Assembly (NCBI GenBank): GCA_002839855.1
Contig: PGYV01000002.1
Coordinates: 187,191-251,190, forward strand
Origin: Candidatus Goldiibacteriota bacterium HGW-Goldbacteria-1
GTDB taxonomy: Bacteria; Oederibacteriota; PGYV01
Direction of reading: 5' to 3'
DNA length: 64,000 nt
A program made the position numbers and the translations under genes. Positions 25,595-37,806 of the stretch are shown here, piece after piece. Each line of letters begins with the position of its first letter. Position 1 is the first letter of the stretch. The notes beneath the pieces were generated by a model. That model was not told the origin of the DNA, ran no database searches, and was given only the letters and a program-made list of their open reading frames with translations.

Positions 25595-26447
25595 GGAGGT
25601 AAAAAGAAAACTATCCGGGGCTGAATCTTTAAAGTCAATAGTGCGCACAATGAAGGTGCTTGCCGCGGTAAATGTCAGGCAGTATGAGAAGATGTCTGAT
25701 GCTATTGACAGGTATAACGAAATTGTGGAAATGGGTTTCAGGGTGTTTTTGGGTAATGAAGAAAAAAATTATAATCCGGCGCCGGAAGAAGAAAACACCG
25801 GATATATTGTACTGGGTTCGGATATGGGCATGTGCGGAAGGTTTAATGACCAGATAGCAGCGTATGCTTTGGAAAAAACAGGTAATAATACAGATACAGT
25901 GATGGCGGTCGGCGACAAAGTTTCCGCCAAGCTGGAAGACGCAGGGGTTAAGCCGGCGGAAACTATTATTTATCCGGCAGTCCTGTCCGCGGGCATTGTG
26001 CCGCTTCTGCGGGAGATAATTCTTAAAATTGACGGGTGGCGGGAGACCAGAGGCATAAATTCCATAAGTGTATGCTATAACAAACCGGCAGATTCACTGT
26101 CGTACAATCCTGTTATGAAAAAGATTCTTCCCATGGAGCCGGAATATCTGGAGCAGTTAAGAAAAAAAGAATGGAAATCCCGCAGCCTTCCTATATATAA
26201 AGAAGATAGGGAGAAGTTATTCTCCGGCCTTGTTAAGAATTATATTTATGTAGCGCTATACAGGGCGTTTGTGGAATCGCTTGTAAGCGAAAACACGGCA
26301 AGGCTTATTTCCATGCAGGCGGCGGAAAAACATACCGCAGAACGCATAGAGGAGCTGACACTGGAATACAACATGGAACGCCAGGACGCCATCACCTCTG
26401 AAATCCTTGACATCATCGCCGGCGCAGAAGCGGTGGAAGGGAAGTAA
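25581..26447 (+). CDS. atpG: N-type ATPase F1 gamma subunit
   Basis: The central-stalk protein has 288 residues: N-terminal helix VKRKLSGAESLKSIVRTMKVLAAVNVRQYEKM, Rossmann-like middle (YIVLGSDMGMCGRFNDQI), and C-terminal helix EKHTAERIEELTLEYNMERQDAITSEI. It overlaps the end of atpA by 14 bp. The sequence is more divergent than canonical gamma, as known for N-type enzymes. It ends the operon; no clear intrinsic terminator follows, only a dispersed repeat. Confidence 0.85.
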   Translation: MQSPEEVKRKLSGAESLKSIVRTMKVLAAVNVRQYEKMSDAIDRYNEIVEMGFRVFLGNEEKNYNPAPEEENTGYIVLGSDMGMCGRFNDQIAAYALEKTGNNTDTVMAVGDKVSAKLEDAGVKPAETIIYPAVLSAGIVPLLREIILKIDGWRETRGINSISVCYNKPADSLSYNPVMKKILPMEPEYLEQLRKKEWKSRSLPIYKEDREKLFSGLVKNYIYVALYRAFVESLVSENTARLISMQAAEKHTAERIEELTLEYNMERQDAITSEILDIIAGAEAVEGK

Positions 26448-26451
26448 AAAA

Positions 26452-26870
26452 AGCGATTTAAGCTATAAGCAGTTAAGCATAAGCGATAGCTATGATTTTG
26501 TAGTGGTTTATTTTTTTTCTTTGAATTTGTAGGGATAGCGCTCCCGCGCTGTCCGCGTATTTGATTTGTCCTGGTAGACGCGGGTCTTCAGCCCGCGGCA
26601 GTTGGTTTGTATTTAATGTTTGTATTTATATTTATATTTATATTTGTATTTGTATTTGTATTGGTATTGGTATTGGTATTGGTAGACGCGGGTCTTCAGC
26701 CCGCGGTAGTTGATTTGTATTTAATGTTTGTATTTGCCATGGTAGGCGAACCCTTTAGGGTGCGGCAGTTGTTCTTGAACGGTCTGCCTTGTCGCCGTTC
26801 TTCCGTCCCTCGGTTCTACTGACCTTCCAAGCCTCTAACCATCCAAGCCTCCAAGCATCTCTCAAGATAA
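26452..26870. repeat. Composite intergenic repeats downstream of the ATPase operon
   Basis: In order: the TTTAAGCTATAAGCAGTTAA-type motif (26458-26485), a GGATAGCGC/GCGCTGTCC hairpin (26531-26555), REP-like hairpins with CGCGGGTCTTCAGCCCGCG at about 26579-26597 and 26686-26705 and with CCCTTTAGGGTGCG at 26751-26764, a hexanucleotide tract TATTTG/TATTGG (26618-26681), TCCGTCCCTC (26799-26812), and CCAAGCCTC octamers (26827-26860). The plus-strand open frame at 26607-26822 consists of this repeat DNA and is not called as a gene. Confidence 0.75.
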
Positions 26871-26878
26871 AAATTCCC

Positions 26879-26907
26879 TTGCCAAACCTCCGCCACAGCC
26901 ATATAAT
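26879..26907 (+). promoter_or_regulatory. Promoter of leader copy A (upstream of the FGE-fold lipoprotein)
   Basis: TTGCCA (26879-26884) and TATAAT (26902-26907) are separated by 17 bp. The same pair occurs at 32871-32899, and the following 100 bp are nearly identical in both places. Confidence 0.65.
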
Positions 26908-27140
26908 ACCAATTGTGGCAGGGGTAATATAAAAGGAAGCGGAGGGAAGATGGAATTGGGAGCAAAAAATCGTTTTTCGTTTCTGCCTGTTATCAACAAC
27001 AACTTCCCTAAAACTATGTTAAGTTTTGCCTATTTCGCGAATTTATATTCAAATTCCAAACGCAAGGGTATGGATAATAACGAGTTTTTTGTTCTGATTT
27101 CAAGGTCTGGTATGAGATTATTATTTTGAATTAGGGAGGT
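26908..27140 (+). other. Conserved 5' leader, copy A
   Basis: About 105 bp after the promoter match copy D (32900-33005) with three differences by eye: C/A, G/T, and one A missing from the A run. The 3' part (TTTCAAGGTCTGGTATGAG, 27099-27117) matches the 3' parts of copies C and D and more weakly B. It precedes the 27149 gene. It could be a duplicated promoter region, a regulatory RNA or a remnant of a mobile repeat. Confidence 0.6.
26950..27129 (+). CDS. Possible 59-codon upstream ORF in leader A (MELGAK...)
   Basis: ATG 26950 follows GGAGGG at ideal spacing and is open to the TGA at 27127-27129, 19 bases before the next gene. The product begins MELGAKNRFSFLPVINNN and is not recognised. The leader copy upstream of the GHKL ATPase has the same start site and the same first six codons, but loses one A of the A run, shifts frame and stops after 20 codons. 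That argues for a leader peptide or decay rather than a conserved protein. Confidence 0.3.
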   Translation: MELGAKNRFSFLPVINNNFPKTMLSFAYFANLYSNSKRKGMDNNEFFVLISRSGMRLLF

Positions 27141-27148
27141 TTTTGCGA

Positions 27149-28405
27149 ATGGCTAAAAATATTTCTTTTATAAGTATGCTGCGAGTAGTTGTTCGATTAC
27201 ATTCTAAAGGTATTGTCTGCGCGTTTTTATTAATTTCAGTATCAACTATGGTATGCATTTCCTGTTCCAGACACTTAAGCCCGCCTGCTATTTCAACATC
27301 TCCGGTAACGCAGGTTCCAACTGCGGCTATTTCGGGTACTGTCTCTGCTGCGGCTTCTCATACTTTTACAAATACAGATACACCTGTTGTTTTTTACACA
27401 AATACAGAAACAAGTACGTTTACAATGACAGATACATTTACACCAACTCGAACGGCAACAAATACCAAAACTCCTATTCCAACACTGTCTTCGGCGCAGA
27501 TAATAGCCACGCAGACTGTAGTTGCGGAAATGGTGGCAGTCCCCGGGGGTACGTTTACGCAGGCGGATTCATATGGAAATTACAGTTTCGTTCACACAAT
27601 TTCACCATTTAAGATTGCAAAATATGAACTTACTTATGATCTTTGGTATAAAGTGTATGATTGGTCCAGACAATCGGGTAATTATGTATATGCAAGTAAT
27701 TACAGTGTCAGTGAAGGTTTTATAGGAACAACTAAACAACCGACCAACGCGAGATTTCAACCGGCTTATGGCATGTCCTGGTATGATGCAATCATTTGGT
27801 GTAATGCTTATAGTGAACTGGCAGGATTGACACCTGTTTACTATAAAGATCCTGCATTTCTTATTCCGCATAATGTTTCAAAGATAATATATCCACCAGA
27901 TATTGATCCAACTCCCGGGAGTATTGATTATCCGTATGTGAAATGGGATGCAAATGGATATAGGTTACCTACATATGGAGAATGGCAATACGCGGCAAGG
28001 TATATTGACGGAACCAGTTGGCTTCCAACCAATTACGCAAGTGGAGCGGCGGATTTTGAATATAACAGTTATGCAACAATGGCTGTTGCGTGGTGCGTGG
28101 AAAATTCAGATTATTATACGCATATTGTAGGTTTGTTGATCCCAAATGCACTGGGGATTTATGATATGTCCGGAAATGTTTCAGAGTGGTGTTGGGATTG
28201 GGGTAATACTTATTTCCCGAATACGCCGAAAGTAAATTACAGGGGACCGGATGTCTGTAGCCTGATAAATCCGGGACGAATAATAGCGGGTTCTTATTTT
28301 ACTATCAGTTCTTTTGATTCCGGTGTTCATTATCTCAGTTGGAGTGATTTATTCTATGGGAACATGGGTGGTGCAGTAACAATAAGACTTGTCAGATCAA
28401 ACTGA
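27149..28405 (+). CDS. Thr-rich lipoprotein with formylglycine-generating-enzyme (SUMF1) fold
   Basis: ATG 27149 follows GGGAGG. The N-terminus is a long signal with a possible lipobox (CISC). Residues about 50-115 are a Thr/Ser/Pro linker like that of the 7446 protein. The rest is a sulfatase-modifying-factor domain: EMVAVPGGTFTQ, IAKYELTYDLWYKVYDWSRQ, AYGMSWYDAIIWCNAYS, GYRLPTYGEWQYAAR, GIYDMSGNVSEWCWDWG and a final IRLVRS. The Cys pair of true formylglycine-generating enzymes, expected in the strand after the GGSY-like segment, is absent (AGSYFTISSFDSGV). It is therefore more likely a binding or structural FGE-fold protein than a catalytic one. No sulfatase is nearby. Base composition is more AT-rich than the ATPase operon. 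Confidence 0.8.
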   Translation: MAKNISFISMLRVVVRLHSKGIVCAFLLISVSTMVCISCSRHLSPPAISTSPVTQVPTAAISGTVSAAASHTFTNTDTPVVFYTNTETSTFTMTDTFTPTRTATNTKTPIPTLSSAQIIATQTVVAEMVAVPGGTFTQADSYGNYSFVHTISPFKIAKYELTYDLWYKVYDWSRQSGNYVYASNYSVSEGFIGTTKQPTNARFQPAYGMSWYDAIIWCNAYSELAGLTPVYYKDPAFLIPHNVSKIIYPPDIDPTPGSIDYPYVKWDANGYRLPTYGEWQYAARYIDGTSWLPTNYASGAADFEYNSYATMAVAWCVENSDYYTHIVGLLIPNALGIYDMSGNVSEWCWDWGNTYFPNTPKVNYRGPDVCSLINPGRIIAGSYFTISSFDSGVHYLSWSDLFYGNMGGAVTIRLVRSN

Positions 28406-28457
28406 CGGTGTTTTTTACTTTTAAATCGCGTTTCTAACATATAAAAGGGGTGTTTTG

Positions 28458-29780
28458 ATGAGAGTGGCTGCAATCATACCGGTTTTGATAGTATTAATAG
28501 AGGGATGTACTGCTCACAGAGCGCCGTCACCTGTCACTGCGGTGGTGATTCCTGCTGAAAGTGTTACAGTTACCGCGACATATACTTTGACAGCAGTAAG
28601 CACGCATACGCCTGCGGCTTCTATCAGCCCGACACATACCCCCGCTGCCACTGCCACTGCCACTGCTACTCCGGGATGTTTTGTTGTCACGTTTGCCGAT
28701 CCTAATTTAGAACAACTTATTAGAGCGAAGATTGCTAAGTATAGTGGAGACATATATAACTGTGATCTGGCAGGGATTTATGAAATTGATGTGGTTTTTG
28801 AAATTTATGATTTATCGGGTTTGGAATATTGTACAAATGTAAAATATTTAGATCTTGACTTTTTTAAGGGGAATACTTTAGCGCAGTTGGCTACTATGAA
28901 GCAATTAGTAAATATACACATTCACGGCAAAGGTCAGGTGATAGATATAACGTCATTAAGTGAATGCACGATTTTATCAACGTTAAAACTAATAAACGTT
29001 GACATATCCGGCACTGTAAGTTCAATTAGTAATTTGTTTAATCTGGTGGTTTTAGATCTTGATTCTGAGTCTTTACCAAATCTTTCGGCTTTATCAGCGC
29101 TTACAAAACTTGTATATCTAAGTGTTTCTGCCTCGAATTTAAGTGATATTTCGGCCATTTCGGGATTAACGAATGTAGAGTATTTGGATATTGTTGCCGG
29201 CGGAATTACTTCTTTATCCGTTTTAAGCGGATTAGATTTACGTGAATTTTCATTTACTCATCTCCCAAGATACATAAGAAGGTCAATAGTATCAGATCTT
29301 TCGCCTTTTGCAGGCATGACAAATCTGGAGATTTTTAGAGTGTCGGGTGCTGAAATTACCGATATTTCTCCTTTGTCTAATTGTACGTCTTTGATTAATC
29401 TTACTATTAATGATACGCTTATTACCAACCTTAACGCGTTATCTGCTTTGTCAAATCTTCAAGATGTTACTCTTTGGGAAAATATAAATCTTGATGATAT
29501 AAGCGGCCTTGCAAATTCTAAAAGTATTTCCGACCTTTCTATTATTGGTTCGAAAGTATCAGATATAAGTGCTATATCTACTATGTCTTGTTTATTTTCG
29601 ATTGACCTGCCTAATAATATGATAACGGACATACATCCCATTGTGTTAAATGCGCAGGATAGTTCGTGTGGACAGAGTCCTTATAGTATTTTCTTGACAG
29701 GCAATCCGCTAAGTGCCGCGGCATTAGCAGACATAGAATTGCTTGAAAATACTTACGGGGTAAGTGTCATGTATGAATAA
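28458..29780 (+). CDS. Thr-rich lipoprotein with leucine-rich repeats
   Basis: ATG 28458 follows AAAAGGGG. The lipobox-like sequence is LIEGC near residue 17. A Thr/Pro/Ala linker (residues about 25-75) follows. From about residue 100 the protein is a solenoid of 22-residue leucine-rich repeats of the internalin/SDS22 kind (LSDISAISGLTNVEYLDI, ITDISPLSNCTSLINLTI, VSDISAISTMSCLFSIDLPN), closing with a cap ITDIHPI and GNPLS. Such repeats are protein- or glycan-binding surfaces. It shares its linker type with the neighbouring FGE-fold lipoprotein, suggesting both are displayed at the outer membrane. No enzymatic motif is seen. Confidence 0.8.
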   Translation: MRVAAIIPVLIVLIEGCTAHRAPSPVTAVVIPAESVTVTATYTLTAVSTHTPAASISPTHTPAATATATATPGCFVVTFADPNLEQLIRAKIAKYSGDIYNCDLAGIYEIDVVFEIYDLSGLEYCTNVKYLDLDFFKGNTLAQLATMKQLVNIHIHGKGQVIDITSLSECTILSTLKLINVDISGTVSSISNLFNLVVLDLDSESLPNLSALSALTKLVYLSVSASNLSDISAISGLTNVEYLDIVAGGITSLSVLSGLDLREFSFTHLPRYIRRSIVSDLSPFAGMTNLEIFRVSGAEITDISPLSNCTSLINLTINDTLITNLNALSALSNLQDVTLWENINLDDISGLANSKSISDLSIIGSKVSDISAISTMSCLFSIDLPNNMITDIHPIVLNAQDSSCGQSPYSIFLTGNPLSAAALADIELLENTYGVSVMYE

Positions 29781-29788
29781 AAACGGTG

Positions 29789-29814
29789 GCAGACATTGGA
29801 AGTAAAATGTCTGC
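29789..29814 (+). terminator. Hairpin, possible terminator
   Basis: GCAGACATT (29789-29797) pairs with AATGTCTGC (29806-29814). The following T content is modest (TTGATATTGTTT). Confidence 0.5.
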
Positions 29815-29821
29815 TTGATAT

Positions 29822-29960
29822 TGTTTCCCAAATTGCACTCTAGCTCTTTGTGGGGTAGGTAAAACATATAATTAGGAAAAAGGCATAAGTCTGTCAGGCG
29901 GAAATGGGTTATTAATTATTTATTTCAACTTTAAAGATTTGGTATGGGCACTTTAATACT
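29822..29960 (+). other. Conserved 5' leader, copy B
   Basis: The segment from TCTTTGTGGGGTAGGTAAAA to GTCTGTCAGGCGGAAAT matches copy C (31470-31530) over about 65 bp. CATATAAT at 29865-29872 is a good -10 without a good -35. The end (TTTAAAGATTTGGTATGGG, 29931-29949) is a diverged form of the 3' motif of the other copies. It precedes the 29982 TPR gene. Confidence 0.5.
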
Positions 29961-29981
29961 ATATTTATGCGGGAGGCTGAT

Positions 29982-30818
29982 ATGCGGCTGAATCGTTATT
30001 TTTTTGTTATGTTTTTTGTGTTTATATTTGTTATTTCCGCGCAGTCAAAAGATGCTGCTTATTATATGAAAGCGGGAATAGAAAGGGATGGTTCAGGAGA
30101 TGATAGAGGAGCTTTAAAAAATTATAATCAGGTTATTAAATTAGATCCTTCAAATGCAAAGGCGTATTCGTACCGCGGTGTAATTGAAGAAAGAGCCGGC
30201 AAGTTAAAAGAAGCGCTTATTGATTTTGATAAAGCGGTGGCTTTAGATCCTGATTTTGCGGATGCACATTTTAACAGGGGTGTAGTATTAGATAAACTTA
30301 AGCAATATGAAAAGGCCTTAAAAGCATATGATAAAGCAATAGAATTAGAACCCAAAATGGCATCTGCATACTTTAACCGTGGAAATGTAAAAGTTTCTAT
30401 TAATAACCTTAAATCAGCAATAAAAGATTACAGCATGGCAATACAAATTAATCCCAAATATATCGGCGCATATTATAACAGAGGCAGTGCCAGAGATAAA
30501 AATGGAGAGTTAAAATTGGCTTTGGCAGATTTTGATGAGATACTTAAATTAAATGAAAATATAGCAGAAGCATATGTTAAACGCGGAAAAATCAAAATGA
30601 AACTAAACGACTATAACGGAGCAGTTGATGATTTTAGTGTTTTGATAACAGGTTATCAGGGGCCGCCTGATGAGTATATTTCTGAATTGTACTTTCTTCG
30701 CGGTTTTTGTTTTGAGAAACTGGCTAAATATAAAAATGCAATACGCGATTTTGAACTGTCAGCGGAATTTGGTTCGGCAGATGCAAAAGAACATCTGGTC
30801 AATTTAAAAGGGAAGTAA
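29982..30818 (+). CDS. Exported TPR protein
   Basis: ATG 29982 was preferred over 29967 because GGGAGG (29971-29976) lies between them. Signal peptide RLNRYFFVMFFVFIFVISAQS. The mature protein is almost entirely tetratricopeptide repeats: about seven 34-residue units such as GALKNYNQVIKLDPSNAKAY, YEKALKAYDKAIELEPKMAS and LKSAIKDYSMAIQINPKYIG. It acts as a periplasmic protein-protein scaffold; the partner is unknown. It lies with a DUF4234 protein and another TPR protein. Confidence 0.8.
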   Translation: MRLNRYFFVMFFVFIFVISAQSKDAAYYMKAGIERDGSGDDRGALKNYNQVIKLDPSNAKAYSYRGVIEERAGKLKEALIDFDKAVALDPDFADAHFNRGVVLDKLKQYEKALKAYDKAIELEPKMASAYFNRGNVKVSINNLKSAIKDYSMAIQINPKYIGAYYNRGSARDKNGELKLALADFDEILKLNENIAEAYVKRGKIKMKLNDYNGAVDDFSVLITGYQGPPDEYISELYFLRGFCFEKLAKYKNAIRDFELSAEFGSADAKEHLVNLKGK

Positions 30819-30867
30819 AACGTGTCTTAACTCTTGCATGGCAGGGTGAAAACGTAACAGGAGAATG

Positions 30868-31413
30868 ATGGCGAATAAAAAGCGGATTTCTGCGGATAAA
30901 ACTAAAAAGAGAGCAAAAAAAGCAGATAAAACGAAGGCAAAAAAGGCCATACCCGCGGTTAAACCGCCGGGGCAAAACCGCGGCGTTGCCATAAAGAAAA
31001 CGCCTGTTTTGCTTGTAATACTTTTTCAGTTAATTACTCTTGGTATTTATTATCCTATATGGTTTTTGCGCAGGATGAAAAGTTTTAATAAAATGGCAAA
31101 AATTACAGGGGAAGTGGAAATATCCAAAGCGGCGCTAGTCTTTGCACTGGTTCTTGAAATTTTATCTGCGGTTGCGGTGCTATTTGGTTCACGTGCGGGT
31201 ATTTTTTCACTTATTACATTTATTTTGCTCACAGTTCAGGCTTTTAGAAGCAGAAGGATTATGGTTTCGTACCAGAAGATGCATAAAATAAAACTGGTAA
31301 TGCCGGGTTTAGCGGTATTTTTTATTTCACCGTATTATCTGCAGTATGAGATTAACAGATTGAATATTAAGATAGGGACAAGGCGTAAAAAAAATACCCG
31401 TATCAGATCATAG
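30868..31413 (+). CDS. DUF4234-like membrane protein with Lys-rich N-terminus
   Basis: The second of two adjacent ATGs (30868) was chosen for its spacing from AGGAG. The first 50 residues are strongly basic (KKRAKKADKTKAKKA). After that a membrane domain begins with LITLGIYYPIWFLRRMKSFN, the Gly-Ile-Tyr-x3-Trp-Phe pattern of DUF4234. Two more hydrophobic segments follow (ALVFALVLEILSAVAVLFG, LVMPGLAVFFISPYYLQYEIN). The family has no known function. The basic tail might bind nucleic acid or phospholipid; that is speculation. Confidence 0.7.
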   Translation: MANKKRISADKTKKRAKKADKTKAKKAIPAVKPPGQNRGVAIKKTPVLLVILFQLITLGIYYPIWFLRRMKSFNKMAKITGEVEISKAALVFALVLEILSAVAVLFGSRAGIFSLITFILLTVQAFRSRRIMVSYQKMHKIKLVMPGLAVFFISPYYLQYEINRLNIKIGTRRKKNTRIRS

Positions 31414-31449
31414 GATAAGAAAGCATAAATTTTATTGTGTAATATTTTA

Positions 31450-31605
31450 TTCCGAACTGCAGTTTCGTTCTTTGTGTGGCAGGGTAAAACATATAATAAT
31501 AAAATGGCATAAGCCTGTCAGACGGAAATTATCTTCCGGGACGGTTTTACTTTCTGGTTTCAAGATCCGGTACGGGTTATTATATTGCTGTTATGAAAAT
31601 CGAGA
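31450..31605 (+). other. Conserved 5' leader, copy C
   Basis: It shares TTTGTGTGGCAGGGTAAAAC and GGCATAAGCCTGTCAGACGG with copy B. It shares GGTTTTACTTTCT plus TTTCAAGATCCGGTACGGG (31540-31576) with copy D, nearly base for base. TATAAT lies at 31492-31497. It precedes the 31621 TPR gene. Confidence 0.55.
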
Positions 31606-31620
31606 TACAGGAGGGTATGA

Positions 31621-32823
31621 ATGAAGAATATTTTAATAACGTTTATATTTTTGGTTATGGGCATTATTCCTGCCATTGCTTTGGAAAAACCGAATAATTC
31701 CAAGGCTGTAGATGAAAAGATGGAAAAGATAAGGACGATGGAAGATAAAACGATTCAAATGAAACTCGGCAGGTCATATATCGCAGAACTGGATGGTATG
31801 ATTCAAAAAGACGCCAAAAATCCTGAACTTTTCTATAAAAAAGGAAATGTTTATTTTTATATAGAGGATGATGCAAACGCCATAAAGTTCTTTTCCGAGG
31901 CCATTTCTCTGTCTCCTGCGGTTTCTGTTTATCACTTTAAAAAAGGAATATCACTGTATTATCTTAGGGACATTGACGGTTCCATAAAAGAGTTAAAAAC
32001 ATCAGCTGAGTTGGATAAGAAGTGCGAAGAATGTTTTTATGAGTTGGGCTGCAGATACTCTGAAAAAGATGATTTTGCGAACGCTGAAGCGGCTTTTAAA
32101 TCGGCGCTCAGGATAAATCCGGAATTTCCGGATGCTATGTCGAAGCTTGGCGGATTATATGCGGAAAAGAGAATGTATGAAAAAGCACTTCCGTTTTTCA
32201 GGGAAATAGTTAAACGCAGGCCTGAAAATGTAAGTGATTTATATAACCTGGGGGTGGTACTGCAGCAGCTAAGGAATAATAAAGAGGCAGCAGACTGTTT
32301 TTCGGCTGTTGTCAAGAAAAACAAAGAAGACTGGCAGGCGATAGCAAAACTTTTACAGATAAGCCAGTCAGCTGACCGCGATGAAGAAGTGAATAAATAT
32401 ATGAAAATGCTTTTTGCGCTATATAGGGCGGGAAAAGTAGGTAAGGATTCATTTTGCAGGGAACAAATATGGGCTGGTGATGTACAGATAGTAGTTATGC
32501 AGGCCTTTGAGTTAAAAGGCGAATTTGCCAAACCGTATGTATTTCTTTTGACCGACTCTAAGACAGGCAGGACGCTTTATGAACTTAGTCTGGAGTCGTT
32601 TGAAGCAGACACGCAGATTGCCAGAGAGACCGGACAGATAAAAAAAGATGAGAGGGTATATACGTATGATTATCATGATACTTCTGACGGTGATTTTCAC
32701 GGTACTCTTGGGATAGTGAACAAAAAACCGGAATATAAGAAATTAAGGAAAATTATGCTTGGATTTGTTGATAGCAAAAATAAAGGAACACTTAAATTTG
32801 TAAGTTCTACCGTTACAAAATGA
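31621..32823 (+). CDS. Exported TPR protein with unassigned C-terminal domain
   Basis: Signal peptide MKNILITFIFLVMGIIPAIA. Residues about 75-265 contain five to six TPR units (ELFYKKGNVYFYIEDDANAI, ANAEAAFKSALRINPEFPDA, YEKALPFFREIVKRRPENVS). Residues about 280-400 form a separate beta-rich domain starting EQIWAGDVQIVVMQAFEL, with Phe/Tyr-rich strands (YELSLESFEADTQIAR, RVYTYDYHDTSDGDFHG). I do not recognise that domain. GGAGG lies six bases upstream of the ATG. Leader copy C precedes the gene. Confidence 0.75.
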   Translation: MKNILITFIFLVMGIIPAIALEKPNNSKAVDEKMEKIRTMEDKTIQMKLGRSYIAELDGMIQKDAKNPELFYKKGNVYFYIEDDANAIKFFSEAISLSPAVSVYHFKKGISLYYLRDIDGSIKELKTSAELDKKCEECFYELGCRYSEKDDFANAEAAFKSALRINPEFPDAMSKLGGLYAEKRMYEKALPFFREIVKRRPENVSDLYNLGVVLQQLRNNKEAADCFSAVVKKNKEDWQAIAKLLQISQSADRDEEVNKYMKMLFALYRAGKVGKDSFCREQIWAGDVQIVVMQAFELKGEFAKPYVFLLTDSKTGRTLYELSLESFEADTQIARETGQIKKDERVYTYDYHDTSDGDFHGTLGIVNKKPEYKKLRKIMLGFVDSKNKGTLKFVSSTVTK

Positions 32824-32870
32824 ATTTAACAGGATTGACCCCGAGCTGCTGCTTTTAATAAAAAATACCA

Positions 32871-32899
32871 TTGCCAAATACCTGTTATCGCCATATAAT
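32871..32899 (+). promoter_or_regulatory. Promoter of leader copy D (GHKL/DGQHR locus)
   Basis: TTGCCA (32871-32876) and TATAAT (32894-32899) are separated by 17 bp, identical boxes and spacing to 26879-26907. Confidence 0.65.
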
Positions 32900-33116
32900 A
32901 CCAATTGTGGAAGGGGTAATATAAAAGGAATCGGAGGGAAGATGGAATTGGGAGCAAAAATCGTTTTTCGTTTCTGCCTGTTATCAACAACAACTTCACA
33001 ATAACTTTGTTTATTTTTGCCTATTTTGCGAATCTAAATTCGATTTCCAAAAGCAAAGTTATGAATAATTACTTGGTTTTACTTTCTACTTTCAAGGTCC
33101 GGCACGGGTTATTATT
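32900..33116 (+). other. Conserved 5' leader, copy D
   Basis: Nearly identical to copy A for about 105 bp. It contains a 20-codon ORF (32942-33004, MELGAKIVFR...) behind GGAGGG. The 3' end carries TTTCAAGGTCCGGCACGGG (33090-33108), shared with copy C. The 359 bp between 32824 and 33182 hold only this leader and its promoter. Confidence 0.6.
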
Positions 33117-33182
33117 CATAAATTATGTAAGTTGTAATAGTAAATAGTTTATATAAAATGGTTTTGTATGGAGGCGGAGTAT

Positions 33183-35594
33183 ATGAGTAACGAAGATTTA
33201 TTCTGGGAGTTTTATCGTGCGTCTGGAGAAAATGAAATTCATAATATTCTTGAAAAACACGATTTAATGAATAACAATTCTTTTTGGTTTCCATATGGGG
33301 GTAAGACGATTGATGATAGAAATAATTTTGGTACGTTTGAAAGTCAGCAAGCAAATCCGATACCCGCTTTAATAGAAAAAATTACAAATTCTATTGACTC
33401 GCTATTGATGTTAAAATGCATAGAAAATGGTGTTGATCCGAAAAGTAAACTAGCTCCTAAGACAATGGAAGAGGCGATAGAAAAATATTTTAACATAAAA
33501 GATGGCGATTTTAGTGAGATAGGTAGAAATGTTAGGCGAAATATAGCTGAAGAAATACAAGTGATAGCTACTGGTGACAAACAAAGTCCTGACATTACTG
33601 TATATGATTGCGGCGAAGGTCAGTTACCAGAGAAGTTTAAAGATACATTTGTTTCGTTGTTGAAAGGAAATAAGAATGATGTACCATTTGTTCAAGGTAA
33701 ATATAATATGGGTTCAACTGGAGCGGTAATTTTCTGTGGTAATAAGAAATATCAATTGATTGGGTCGAAATTAAATAAAACTATTGGTAGTTCTGAAAGT
33801 CCATTTGGATTTACATTAGTGCGTAGGCATCCATTAACGGAAGAAGAAGAAAGCAAATATAAAAGTAGTTGGTATGAATATTTGGTTATTGAAAATGAAA
33901 TACCAAGCTTTAATTGTGGCGAACTTGATTTAGGTCTGTATAATAGAAAATTCGAGTGTGGTTCAATTATTAAAATGTTTTCATATGGATTGCCAAGAGG
34001 GGCTCGTTCATCTGTGGTATGGGATTTGTGGAGAGAATTGAATCAGTTTCTATATCATCCAGCACTGCCGTTTCTTGTTTATGAAAAAAGAGGATATGAT
34101 AATAAAACTCCGTCAAAACTAGTTCTTGGTAATAAGATCCGGTTAATTCTTGATGAAAGAGACAAAAAAGAAAAAACGATAACTACAAAAATCATTGATG
34201 AAAGATTTGGTGAAATTCCAATAGAAGTTCATGTGTTTAAAAATGATGTGAATCAAACTGAGTTTATCAACGGCAAAGCATTGATTTTTACTGTAAATGG
34301 ACAGGTTCAGGGTTATGAAAAAAGAAACTTTATTTCAAGTGAGTTAAATTTCCCTATGTTGAAAGATCATATGCTTGTTAGGGTTGATTGTACAAATATA
34401 AGGACTTCTATACGAACGGATTTATTTAAGTCTTCTAGAGATAGATTGAATGAAAGTGTTTTAACGGAAGAATTTCTTGATAAAATTATAAATGTTTTAA
34501 AAGGCAATGAAGAATTAAGGAAAATTAACCAGGAAAGAAAGAATTCTATTTTACGACAAAATGCAGATGATAAGAAGTTATTTGAAGATATTATAACAAG
34601 AATGCCTCTGCAAAATGATTTTATTAAAATGTTTACACAGTCAAATGATTTTAATTTTGATCTTAAAAATATAAATAAGAAACATGATAGGACTGATTCG
34701 TCTGATGGAAGTGAGAAAACTAAAAAGCCGATTGAGTCGAAAAGATTTCCTTCGATTTTCAAAGTTCAATTAAAAGATAATAACAATAAAGATAAAATTA
34801 AGACAATACCCATAAACGGAAAAGGTGTTATCAATTTTGAAACCGATGTTGAAGATGAGTATTTGTTTAGGCCTAAAGATAAAGGCGAACTAAGAATTGG
34901 AATATTAAATTATAAAAGCAATAATGCCGACGGTGGAACGGAAGCAAAGCCAACCAAGATTGAAGAACTATTGGATGTCACTCTTAGCGGACCAACGGAT
35001 AATGCAATTAAAGCGACTTTTGAACCTAAGGCGAAATTAAATGTTGGTGATGAAATTCAAATAAGCACTACGCTAACATCTCCTTCGGGGGATTTGGAAT
35101 GTATTTTCTACATTAAAATTATAGATCCTCAGAATTTGCAAGATAATAATTCAAAGAATAAAGACAAAGAAAGTCTTAACCTACCTTTGCCAATAAAAGT
35201 ATTTGAAAACAAAGACAAAGACGATGATAGGACGTGGAGTGATTATGGTTGGGATGGCAATGATATTGTAAAGATAATAACTGATAATGAAAATAAAGAA
35301 AAAAAATTGATTGAGGGTATAGCGATAAATATGGACAGTTTTGTAATCAAAAGATATATTTCTAAAAATAAAGTTATTACTTCAAGTGATCTGGTATTAA
35401 CAAAGAATAGATACTTCCTTTCTGTTTATTGGCATAGTATTTTTCTGTTTAAATTTCTTGAGAATATTTTTAAAGCCGAAGAATATCAAGAATTACCAGA
35501 AGATGTTGAGGAGATAGTAGCGCAATTGATGCAGTTTTATTCAGAATTTTTATTATCTTTTGGTATGTTAGGAGAGAGTTTAAATCAGGATTAA
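33183..35594 (+). CDS. GHKL (HSP90/MORC-like) ATPase, candidate defence component
   Basis: ATG 33183 was chosen because GGAGG (33170-33174) lies eight bases upstream; the ATG at 33168 overlaps it. The 803-residue protein starts with a Bergerat-fold ATPase: N-box ALIEKITNSIDSLL (Glu65, Asn69, Asp72), G1 box ITVYDCGEG (142-146) and lid/G2 box GKYNMGSTGAVIF (172-184). The S5-like transducer region follows to about residue 430 (HMLVRVDCTNIRTSIRTDLFK). A charged middle and a beta-rich C-terminal half (DVTLSGPTDNAIKATFEP, ITTLTSPSGDLE-type strands) come next. This layout resembles the MORC-like ATPases found in bacterial restriction-type operons. The gene is far more AT-rich than the flanking core genes. 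It is followed by a DGQHR-GIY-YIG gene. Role in defence is inferred. Confidence 0.75.
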   Translation: MSNEDLFWEFYRASGENEIHNILEKHDLMNNNSFWFPYGGKTIDDRNNFGTFESQQANPIPALIEKITNSIDSLLMLKCIENGVDPKSKLAPKTMEEAIEKYFNIKDGDFSEIGRNVRRNIAEEIQVIATGDKQSPDITVYDCGEGQLPEKFKDTFVSLLKGNKNDVPFVQGKYNMGSTGAVIFCGNKKYQLIGSKLNKTIGSSESPFGFTLVRRHPLTEEEESKYKSSWYEYLVIENEIPSFNCGELDLGLYNRKFECGSIIKMFSYGLPRGARSSVVWDLWRELNQFLYHPALPFLVYEKRGYDNKTPSKLVLGNKIRLILDERDKKEKTITTKIIDERFGEIPIEVHVFKNDVNQTEFINGKALIFTVNGQVQGYEKRNFISSELNFPMLKDHMLVRVDCTNIRTSIRTDLFKSSRDRLNESVLTEEFLDKIINVLKGNEELRKINQERKNSILRQNADDKKLFEDIITRMPLQNDFIKMFTQSNDFNFDLKNINKKHDRTDSSDGSEKTKKPIESKRFPSIFKVQLKDNNNKDKIKTIPINGKGVINFETDVEDEYLFRPKDKGELRIGILNYKSNNADGGTEAKPTKIEELLDVTLSGPTDNAIKATFEPKAKLNVGDEIQISTTLTSPSGDLECIFYIKIIDPQNLQDNNSKNKDKESLNLPLPIKVFENKDKDDDRTWSDYGWDGNDIVKIITDNENKEKKLIEGIAINMDSFVIKRYISKNKVITSSDLVLTKNRYFLSVYWHSIFLFKFLENIFKAEEYQELPEDVEEIVAQLMQFYSEFLLSFGMLGESLNQD

Positions 35595-35630
35595 TTAATA
35601 TGGAATCTAAATAAGGAACAGAAAGATAAA

Positions 35631-35660
35631 TTGACAGTAGAAATGCACAAAGCTTATAAT
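35631..35660 (+). promoter_or_regulatory. Consensus promoter for the DGQHR-GIY-YIG gene
   Basis: TTGACA (35631-35636) and TATAAT (35655-35660) are separated by 18 bp. A leader of about 165 bp follows before the ATG at 35832, so the second gene can be expressed independently. Confidence 0.7.
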
Positions 35661-35831
35661 TACATTAATGTTTTAGGGAGTAATTATATAGCAATATGAC
35701 ATTCGAAATAACATTAAGAAAGAGTTCTAAAACTTATTTTTCAAAACGAATAGATCCAAAAGAAAAAATTCTTATTTATCAGATAGAATGTGATTTTATT
35801 CGAAAGTATAAAATTTGGAGGTTTATTAAAT

Positions 35832-37349
35832 ATGGAAAAATTTCATTATCCCGCAATAAGATTAAAACAATTTAATACCGAATTATACCTAACAAGTCTT
35901 TCTGCTGAAAGTGTAGCATATTTAGTTAATCAAAAATCATTAATCGTCGACAAATATCAAAGAGGCGAAGAAGATTCTTATCAAAGGAACGAAGATCATA
36001 GTAAGATTAGAGAACTTGCTGACTTTTTAAGATTATATAAGAATGATGATATTGTAAAGCCGATTTTGCCAGCATCAATCATCATTAATGTCCCCGACAG
36101 TTCTAACCTAACTTTTGATGAAAAAAACGGCCAAATTATTCTTGATAAAAAAGCAAAATTGAATATCGTAGATGGGCAGCATCGAGTCAAGGCTGTTTGT
36201 AAAGCTTATAGCGATGGAATCGCAGATGATTTCGAAGTACCAGTTACATTTATCAAAGGGTTAAAACGCATTCATGAAGCGGCTCAGTTTTTAATTATCA
36301 ACGTTAAACAAAAACAAGTTAGAACCGATTTAACCATGACCATATTGCATGAAATGAATGTACAAACGAACCAACTTGCAACGAAATTGAGAAAAATACT
36401 TAAAGTAGATGGATGGCAGATTGAAGCGACCGCCATCGCTATTGATGTAAATACCAGGCAAAGAAGTCCATGGTTTAATTTAATAATGAGGCCCAATGAA
36501 TCAAAACAATCATTGAAAGAACTAGGGGTAAAATGGGTACCTATCAAACAGGCTTCATTTGTCGATTCACTCAGAAGATTTTGCGCTACAAATACTTCTA
36601 AAACGCTCGAGGAAAAGATCGCATTTTTAATTAAAACATGGAATTATCTTAAAAAAGAATACGCCCCTTCATTTGATTGCGAGACTGGGAATAATTATAT
36701 GTTAACCAAAGGAACCGCGATAGGGCCAATACATATTTTTATGAGTTTGATGTATTCCATGGAAACCTGTGGTTTGTATGAAAATATCGAAGAAGTAATG
36801 ACAACGTTTGTAAAAAAATATCCGTTAGAATTCTGGGAAAAGGGAAGCAAACACGCAGGATCATGGGGCACTTCGCAAAAAGAATATTATACACACGCAA
36901 AAGAAATTTCTGAAGTAATGTTTCCGGAATTGTATTCTTTTTGGAACTCGGATTTATTAGAACATTATAGAAAAAAAGATTTAGTTGATGATGAAGTTCT
37001 TAATAGTATTGAGCATCTAATGGATCCTTTTTCGCTGAAACCATATACGGAAATAGAAGAATACATTAAAAACGATGTATCTGGTATATATTTATTAATA
37101 AATAAAAAACGAAATAAACTGAATATGTATGTTGGGCAAGCCGAAAGCATAAAGGACAGAGTTGCTGGTCATAATAGAGATTTCCTTGCTTTTAATTTCA
37201 TCACTGTTAACGGCGAAGATCTAGACACGAGCGAAGCGCTCGTATATCATTTGATTAACAAAGAGTTTAGAACAAATACAATACATCCTCCTACTAAAAA
37301 ATGTGAATTTTGCGAACACGATAAAAAACATAAGTCTAAGAAGAAATAA
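35832..37349 (+). CDS. DGQHR-domain protein fused to a C-terminal GIY-YIG nuclease
   Basis: ATG 35832 follows GGAGG at ten bases. The 505-residue protein has the DGQHR/DndB-like ParB-Srx fold in its N-terminal half: a DKYQRGEEDSYQRNEDHSKI segment and NIVDGQHRVKAV with DGQHR at residues 114-118. A helical middle (residues about 180-400) links to a GIY-YIG-like domain: GIYLLI (from about 418), MYVGQAESIKDRVAGHN (about 432-448, with the expected Arg) and SEALVYHLI (Glu near 466). The C-terminus is Cys/His/Lys-rich (KKCEFCEHDKKHKSKKK). DGQHR proteins occur in DNA phosphorothioation systems, and related DUF262/DGQR proteins fused to nucleases (SspE, GmrSD) are restriction factors. A DNA-sensing nuclease is inferred; the fusion itself is unfamiliar to me. 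Confidence 0.75.
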   Translation: MEKFHYPAIRLKQFNTELYLTSLSAESVAYLVNQKSLIVDKYQRGEEDSYQRNEDHSKIRELADFLRLYKNDDIVKPILPASIIINVPDSSNLTFDEKNGQIILDKKAKLNIVDGQHRVKAVCKAYSDGIADDFEVPVTFIKGLKRIHEAAQFLIINVKQKQVRTDLTMTILHEMNVQTNQLATKLRKILKVDGWQIEATAIAIDVNTRQRSPWFNLIMRPNESKQSLKELGVKWVPIKQASFVDSLRRFCATNTSKTLEEKIAFLIKTWNYLKKEYAPSFDCETGNNYMLTKGTAIGPIHIFMSLMYSMETCGLYENIEEVMTTFVKKYPLEFWEKGSKHAGSWGTSQKEYYTHAKEISEVMFPELYSFWNSDLLEHYRKKDLVDDEVLNSIEHLMDPFSLKPYTEIEEYIKNDVSGIYLLINKKRNKLNMYVGQAESIKDRVAGHNRDFLAFNFITVNGEDLDTSEALVYHLINKEFRTNTIHPPTKKCEFCEHDKKHKSKKK

Positions 37350-37456
37350 TTTTCAATCATTAAATTGATCGGATACTATTAACGAAATTACCAGTTAAAG
37401 TAATATCTGTGCCGGACATTAAAAAAGAAAGTAAATTTATTGTTTGATTTTTCTTA

Positions 37457-37705
37457 CGGAATGCAATCTGGGGCTTTGCGGGGAAGGGTTGGGTTAAAAA
37501 AGCGTTTTAAGCTATAAACAGTTAAGCAAAAGCAATTTGACCTTTTGACCGGGTGGATAGTTAAAAATAATCTACTACCGCGGGCTGAAGACCCGCGTCT
37601 ACCAGATCCAAACCAATCCTACAAGCAATCGAGATGCCTTGCCCTTGCTTCCGTTCCTCTGTGCATCTGTCCCTCCGTCCCTCCGGTCTTACGGCTTTCA
37701 TAAAA
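37457..37705. repeat. Composite intergenic repeats before hppA
   Basis: In order: a fragment resembling leaders B/C (GGGGCTTTGCGGGGAAGGG, 37472-37490), TTTTAAGCTATAAACAGTTA (37503-37522), a REP-like hairpin CCGCGGGCTGAAGACCCGCG (37578-37597), and CTGTCCCTCCGTCCCTCC (37667-37684). The module order is the same as at 26.45-26.81 kb. I see no gene between 37350 and 37806. Confidence 0.7.
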
Positions 37706-37738: not shown

Positions 37739-37806
37739 ACTCCGAAAGTGTTTTTCTGCGCTAAAACTGTGTTTTATAAACACTATACTTCTTGAAGGAG
37801 GAACAG

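Follow-up and report, generated by a model that had tools for sequence, protein, structure and literature searches.

In the 64,000-nucleotide stretch of the Candidatus Goldiibacteriota bacterium HGW-Goldbacteria-1 genome analyzed here (contig PGYV01000002.1, positions 187,191 to 251,190; hereafter the window), two adjacent genes encode a predicted GHKL ATPase and a protein that joins a DGQHR domain to a putative GIY-YIG nuclease domain. We read these genes, with a probability of roughly one half, as one compact restriction-like defense module, a modification-free relative of a module consisting of a GHKL ATPase, a ParB/Srx-type nucleoside triphosphatase (NTPase), and a nuclease that is linked to Ssp phosphorothioation loci. 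The analysis establishes the domains, the catalytic motifs, the ATPase fold, and a genomic association that recurs within the ATPase family. The two genes likely work together, and we infer that their products would do so on DNA and against phages, that is, in defense. The broader finding is an unnamed GHKL ATPase that is linked to sspBCD and is possibly part of the restriction half of Ssp loci.

Architecture of the two proteins

Both open reading frames (ORFs) are intact, and a GGAGG ribosome-binding site lies upstream of each start codon.

33183..35594, + strand: predicted GHKL (Bergerat) plus S5 ATPase gene, intact ORF of 803 residues, ATG at 33183
35832..37349, + strand: DGQHR–GIY-YIG fusion gene, intact ORF of 505 residues, ATG at 35832

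The ATPase harbors the Bergerat motifs E65/N69/D72, D142-x-G-E-G (D142/G144/G146), and GKYNMGSTG, all of which show little or no variation among 42 relatives. Taken alone, its sequence matches no Pfam, PADLOC, or NCBIfam model, and the family is not named in any of these three resources; 39 of the 42 relatives match HATPase_c_3 (PF13589). Comparison with solved structures by sequence, singly and as a profile, returned nothing, and only a fold search gave matches. The AlphaFold model (predicted local distance difference test score, pLDDT, 80.9) aligns with the N-terminal and middle domains of Hsp90/TRAP1 over 292 residues (Z 15.9, root mean square deviation 4.2), spanning residues 42 to 454, and Foldseek retrieves the ATPase modules of GyrB/ParE and SMCHD1 with E<1e-7. 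The modeled protein is thus predicted to be a GHKL superfamily member, with a Bergerat fold followed by an S5 domain. The C-terminal part (about residues 525–803) contains one beta-rich and one alpha/beta region, in which the E-D-ExK motif of paraMORC3 is not seen as conserved. The original prediction, made from the DNA sequence, had termed this ATPase MORC-like, a description that holds at the level of the fold but not of the MORC-specific S5 motif GhXhhpXXRhl, for which a search with the published pattern, written as a regular expression, finds 0 of 89 family members.

The second protein is assigned by its profile matches to the DGQHR/DndB domain family, with 97.6 bits for DGQHR (TIGR03187; cut-off 58.85) and 59.2 bits for DndB (PF14072; cut-off 29.1). 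This NTPase-like domain of the DndB/ParB-Srx type extends over approximately residues 1–345, with the DGQHR pentapeptide (D114–R118), the QR pair (Q51–R52), and the FxxxN motif (F153–N157) all present. The C-terminal GIY-YIG nuclease domain is assigned, as a prediction, by a motif set that is complete at approximately residues 410–485 (GIY 418–420, YVG 433–435, R443, E468, and N482); the GIY-YIG model itself (PF01541) scores 19.3 bits, under its cut-off of 22.6. There is also a weak match to the intron endonuclease model TIGR01453, and the DpdB model of the 7-deazaguanine (Dpd) system reaches 53.6 bits against a cut-off of 300. The AlphaFold model is poor, with a pLDDT of 51 that falls below 50 in the GIY-YIG region, though the order beta-beta-alpha-beta-alpha can be traced there. 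A lysine-rich C-x2-C-x-H tail (C491, C494, and H496; window 37302–37349), which could bind zinc, ends the protein. Catalytic motifs appear intact in both proteins, and we count this in favor of a single module. The sequence-based account of an 803-residue Bergerat ATPase and a 505-residue DGQHR–GIY-YIG protein proves accurate, including the residues it named, and its fold families are borne out by the AlphaFold model for GHKL and by motif for GIY-YIG; the structural comparison it proposed is informative for the ATPase, which gives the GHKL fold, whereas the model of the second protein is too poor.

The nearest relatives of the second gene are found on plasmids of Sinorhizobium, Rhizobium, and Cupriavidus (loci L091–L095), where a DGQHR gene overlaps a GIY-YIG gene of 112 to 113 residues by 4 base pairs (bp), no ATPase is present, and identity to the window fusion is 24 to 26% in the DGQHR part and 21 to 29% in the GIY-YIG part. 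Two viral contigs carry the same gene pair with a 10-bp gap. Since these nearest relatives are DGQHR/GIY-YIG gene pairs without an ATPase, the window protein appears to be a natural fusion, the joined version of a recurring two-gene unit able to stand alone; the separate adjacent genes of L091–L095, in the subfamily of the window protein, correspond to the state that would precede such a fusion. Searches of 44 further genomes from the phylum, of viral contigs, and of phages gave no other copy of the fusion. The DGQHR domain of the window protein falls in a different subfamily from that of the Ssp-linked genes. The relation of the fusion to the DGQHR and GIY-YIG families of Ssp loci is seen only by profile–profile comparison, and we rejected the idea that it is a direct ortholog of the Ssp-linked genes, the profiles of which score 14 and 5 bits.

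The ATPase family and its link to phosphorothioation loci

We scanned GTDB species genomes and kept the best 80 of 234 relatives; the family tree comprises 89 members. The family is patchily distributed across Bacteria and Archaea and closely associated with Ssp loci, plasmids, and prophage-like contigs. The tree splits cleanly into an "Ssp clade" and a "solo clade," the latter of which includes the window ATPase. Clustering of the surrounding genes reveals that SspC, a BrxC-like ATPase, and SspD of the SspBCD phosphorothioation system adjoin most family members. Ssp genes adjoin 60 of the 66 members of the Ssp clade; among the remaining six, three (L071, L080, and L082) come from genomes that carry SspC at another site, two (L049 and L064) are on very short contigs in which no SspC was found, and L087 is a prophage-like contig. 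The uncatalogued GHKL ATPase is seen beside sspBCD in L021–L082 (57 loci with SspC) and L128–L131. Among 395 Bacteroidota genomes drawn as a sample, the ATPase is found in 11 and SspC in 25, with three of the SspC matches being weak (E 1e-13 to 1e-19), and both occur in six genomes, in all of which they lie within 4 kb of each other (Fisher p = 1e-4 with the sample's centre left out). The ATPase stands beside sspBCD in 5 of 24 SspC-positive genomes of this sample. A link to phosphorothioation systems, which the original prediction had mentioned for DGQHR/DndB proteins, holds for the sister clade (60/66), but the corresponding genes are absent from the window genome.

The literature searched, which excluded subscription papers, yielded no report of GHKL proteins at phosphorothioation loci, and GHKL is not mentioned in PMC8092258, PMC10853773, or PMC12839542. 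In the survey of Wang 2021 (PMC8092258), SspE and SspFGH are missing from 2,211 of 2,678 sspBCD loci (a share printed as 83.9%), which leaves the restriction half of those loci unaccounted for; an uncatalogued ATPase family coupled to interchangeable effectors could be tested as a candidate for filling some of this gap. It is possible, and we propose it tentatively, that the family is an unrecognized common core of modular restriction systems, in which the Ssp clade would supply the effector hub that is missing from many sspBCD loci reported without SspE or SspFGH, with a swappable ParB/Srx-type NTPase plus nuclease, SIR2, or kinase effectors, and the clade of the window would be free of phosphorothioation, with a DGQHR–GIY-YIG effector reading another cue.

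Candidate effector genes are found around many of these ATPases. At least one ParB/Srx-type NTPase (DGQHR, DUF262, or SspE-like) is present in 36 of 62 Ssp-clade loci, with DGQHR in 19, DUF262 in 15, and an SspE-like protein in four. DGQHR is accompanied by a separate GIY-YIG gene near the ATPase in 13 of the 62, and DUF262 by a SIR2 protein in six loci and by a Ser/Thr kinase in seven. In L024, L129, and others, Ser/Thr kinase genes were noticed beside DUF262 and the ATPase, in the place that a SIR2 gene occupies in sister loci.

DGQHR genes are concentrated close to the ATPase, accounting for 20 of 428 genes at most three genes away and 1 of 492 further off, and the association shows 16 changes of state on the tree and has therefore been made or lost many times. 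ATPase, GIY-YIG, and DGQHR genes follow one another in this order on the same strand, contiguous or with small gaps, in L030, L033, L050, L052, and L056, an order that L131 of the drawn sample repeats. DGQHR overlaps the ATPase gene by 4 bp in L053 and L048. An overlap of 4 bp also joins a DGQHR/DndB gene to a distant relative of the ATPase in L108 (6140–9657), a locus from the phylum to which the window belongs and in which no Ssp genes are seen. In L087 (6382–10433), a single gene of 102 residues lies between an Ssp-type DGQHR gene and the ATPase, with no sspBCD seen; terminase- and Dam-like genes were recognized by eye on this contig. In L077 (5648–7972), L058, L052, and L081, DGQHR proteins of 715 to 778 residues with an extra C-terminal half are encoded directly upstream of the ATPase; these long proteins come from Poribacteria and gammaproteobacterial metagenome-assembled genomes. 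The DGQHR genes that touch or lie near the ATPase provide the strongest support for the pairing, yet this support is indirect because the proteins they encode only remotely resemble that of the window.

The solo clade presents a different picture, with Ssp genes beside the ATPase in 0 of 20 loci. SspC is absent from all 18 genomes searched (the window genome G000, G016, and 16 solo-clade genomes), whereas all six positive-control genomes were positive. SspB (DUF4007) was not found in G000 in a search in which no control genome was positive, a result weaker than that for SspC, and complete DndC was found neither in G000 nor in solo-clade genomes in a search in which no control reached the cut-off. 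The window pair as an Ssp effector was rejected on these grounds. GIY-YIG genes of this clade lie directly after the ATPase in L016 and downstream in L013, and other nucleases include YhcG in L007, L010, and L019 and Vsr in L014. In L132 (4015–14205), placed in the solo clade from its sequence start and not from the tree, the ATPase shares what looks like an operon with genes for a C5 cytosine methylase, a MutH-type nuclease, a metallophosphoesterase, and another GHKL protein.

If the module also works without phosphorothioation genes, as in the window, the question becomes how self is told from non-self. In the mechanism we propose, the GHKL plus S5 ATPase would act as an ATP-driven dimeric clamp closing on DNA, as its Hsp90/GyrB/SMCHD1 fold suggests; the DGQHR domain, a ParB/sulfiredoxin-type NTPase, would read the state of DNA or nucleotide and serve as a switch, by comparison with DndB, SspE, and GmrS; and the fused GIY-YIG domain, with its apparently intact catalytic motifs, would nick or cut invading DNA. 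SspE, whose NTP hydrolysis and nicking are driven by the binding of phosphorothioate (PMC10952713), offers an analogy. The window genome lacks SspB/C and DndC, so discrimination would have to use a cue other than phosphorothioation; the simplest guess is that this is most likely modified or unusually structured phage DNA, recognized in a type IV-like manner.

One module or two neighboring genes

The surroundings of the pair bear on this choice and include the following additional features.

35631..35660, + strand: sigma-70 consensus TTGACA-18-TATAAT, 12/12 match, in the 237-bp gap between the two genes
32890..33116, + strand: intergenic repeat of 227 bp just upstream of the ATPase gene, 86% identical to 26898–27125
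37493..37533, + strand: 41-bp direct repeat, 90% match to 26444–26484; the two copies bracket the AT-rich stretch that separates the ATP-synthase genes from hppA

Several observations weigh against a single module. The two genes are separated by 237 bp, and the perfect sigma-70 consensus before the second, a putative promoter, suggests that the DGQHR–GIY-YIG gene may be transcribed on its own, so that the two need not share one transcript. The nearest relatives of the fusion stand without an ATPase, many solo-clade ATPases have no obvious partner, and the DGQHR domain of the window is only a distant relative of its Ssp-linked counterparts (HHalign, 97.4% across the 132 columns that surround the motif). 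The fusion was found in 0 of 17 ATPase-bearing genomes (16 from the solo clade plus G016) in a search without a positive control, a second copy of the exact pair was not found in the genomes and contigs searched, and neither gene has an experimental relative. The claim of a two-gene system, as first made, is partly supported: association with DGQHR and GIY-YIG genes recurs within the ATPase family, but no further instance of this exact pair turned up in the searches, and the claim is weakened by the stand-alone DGQHR–GIY unit, the separate promoter consensus, and the other nucleases with which the window clade also pairs. The search for co-occurring homologues proposed at the outset yielded contiguous and 4-bp-overlapping pairs, as well as two cases (L108 and L087) with no Ssp genes seen, but not the pair itself.

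The main rival explanation, which we consider somewhat unlikely, is that two independent defense genes, a stand-alone GHKL ATPase and a stand-alone DGQHR–GIY-YIG nuclease, ended up as neighbors in an AT-rich hotspot for insertions. The absence of the ATPase from the DGQHR plus GIY unit of five plasmids and of at least two viral contigs, the scarcity of DGQHR around solo-clade ATPases, and the promoter consensus of the second gene all fit this explanation, as does the region itself. Both genes lie within an AT-rich interval between the ATP-synthase genes (ending at 26447) and hppA (starting at 37792), with GC contents of 31% (ATPase) and 33% (DGQHR–GIY-YIG) compared with 43 to 46% for the downstream hppA and ychF, as the original prediction had indicated. 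That account also placed the pair between core genes, which is correct downstream (hppA and ychF) but not upstream, where TPR, LRR, and FGE-sulfatase-like genes are found. Dispersed repeats flank the region, and a same-genus genome, G002, has different gene content upstream of hppA; this comparison rests on G002, as the contig of G001 stops just upstream of hppA. Other dispersed intergenic repeats besides that of 227 bp were noticed in the AT-rich interval (window 26444–37617). Against independence, the ATPase family is repeatedly and independently associated with DGQHR and GIY-YIG genes, which makes adjacency better than random, and both genes are rare in the window genome and phylum.

In a second alternative, which we regard as quite unlikely, the ATPase would form the core of a more general restriction machine that loops DNA in the manner of paraMORC/MutL and takes any nuclease, with DGQHR as a regulator of expression and not a sensor. 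The solo-clade neighbors YhcG, Vsr, GIY-YIG, and the C5-methylase/MutH-type restriction operon are consistent with this alternative, as are the occurrence of paraMORCs in restriction operons (Iyer 2008, PMC2292703) and the claim that DndB is a transcriptional regulator (PMC10853773); the fusion of DGQHR to the nuclease itself, however, is easier to reconcile with direct participation in cutting than with a transcriptional role. Finally, roles outside defense, the ATPase in DNA repair and the DGQHR–GIY protein as a homing or selfish nuclease gene, are very improbable: GHKL plus S5 proteins include MutL and GIY-YIG enzymes include intron endonucleases (the weak TIGR01453 match here), but the patchy spread across Bacteria and Archaea, in close connection with Ssp loci, plasmids, and prophage-like contigs, argues otherwise, and no intron or insertion target was seen.

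Comparison with known systems

The module we favor resembles, through its relatives, the SspABCD–SspE and SspABCD–SspFGH systems (Wang 2021, PMC8092258), in that the sister ATPase clade adjoins sspBCD together with NTPases of the DGQHR, DUF262, or SspE type and nucleases, and SspE, like the window fusion, couples a ParB/Srx NTPase to a nuclease. Unlike these systems, the window genome is without SspB, SspC, and DndC, and SspF, SspG, and SspH as described (PMC8092258) have a Walker A motif and similarity to FtsK, not GHKL or GIY-YIG. Prokaryotic MORC and paraMORC proteins (Iyer 2008, PMC2292703) share the GHKL plus S5 ATPase, variable nucleases, restriction-type neighborhoods, and a proposed role as a DNA-looping engine, but none of the 89 members of the present family has the MORC S5 motif, and the window has no SF2 helicase partner. 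The rhizobial and Cupriavidus plasmid pairs (L091–L095) have the same two domains as the fusion, encoded by two overlapping genes without a GHKL ATPase. Finally, the type IV enzymes GmrSD, BrxU, and SspE likewise combine a ParB/Srx-type DGQ(H/Q)R NTPase and a nuclease in one chain, and DGQHR and DUF262 domains have common motifs and probably a ParB/Srx fold (PMC4619093); relative to these enzymes, the window has DGQHR (DndB family) in place of DUF262, GIY-YIG in place of DUF1524/HNH, and a separate GHKL ATPase.

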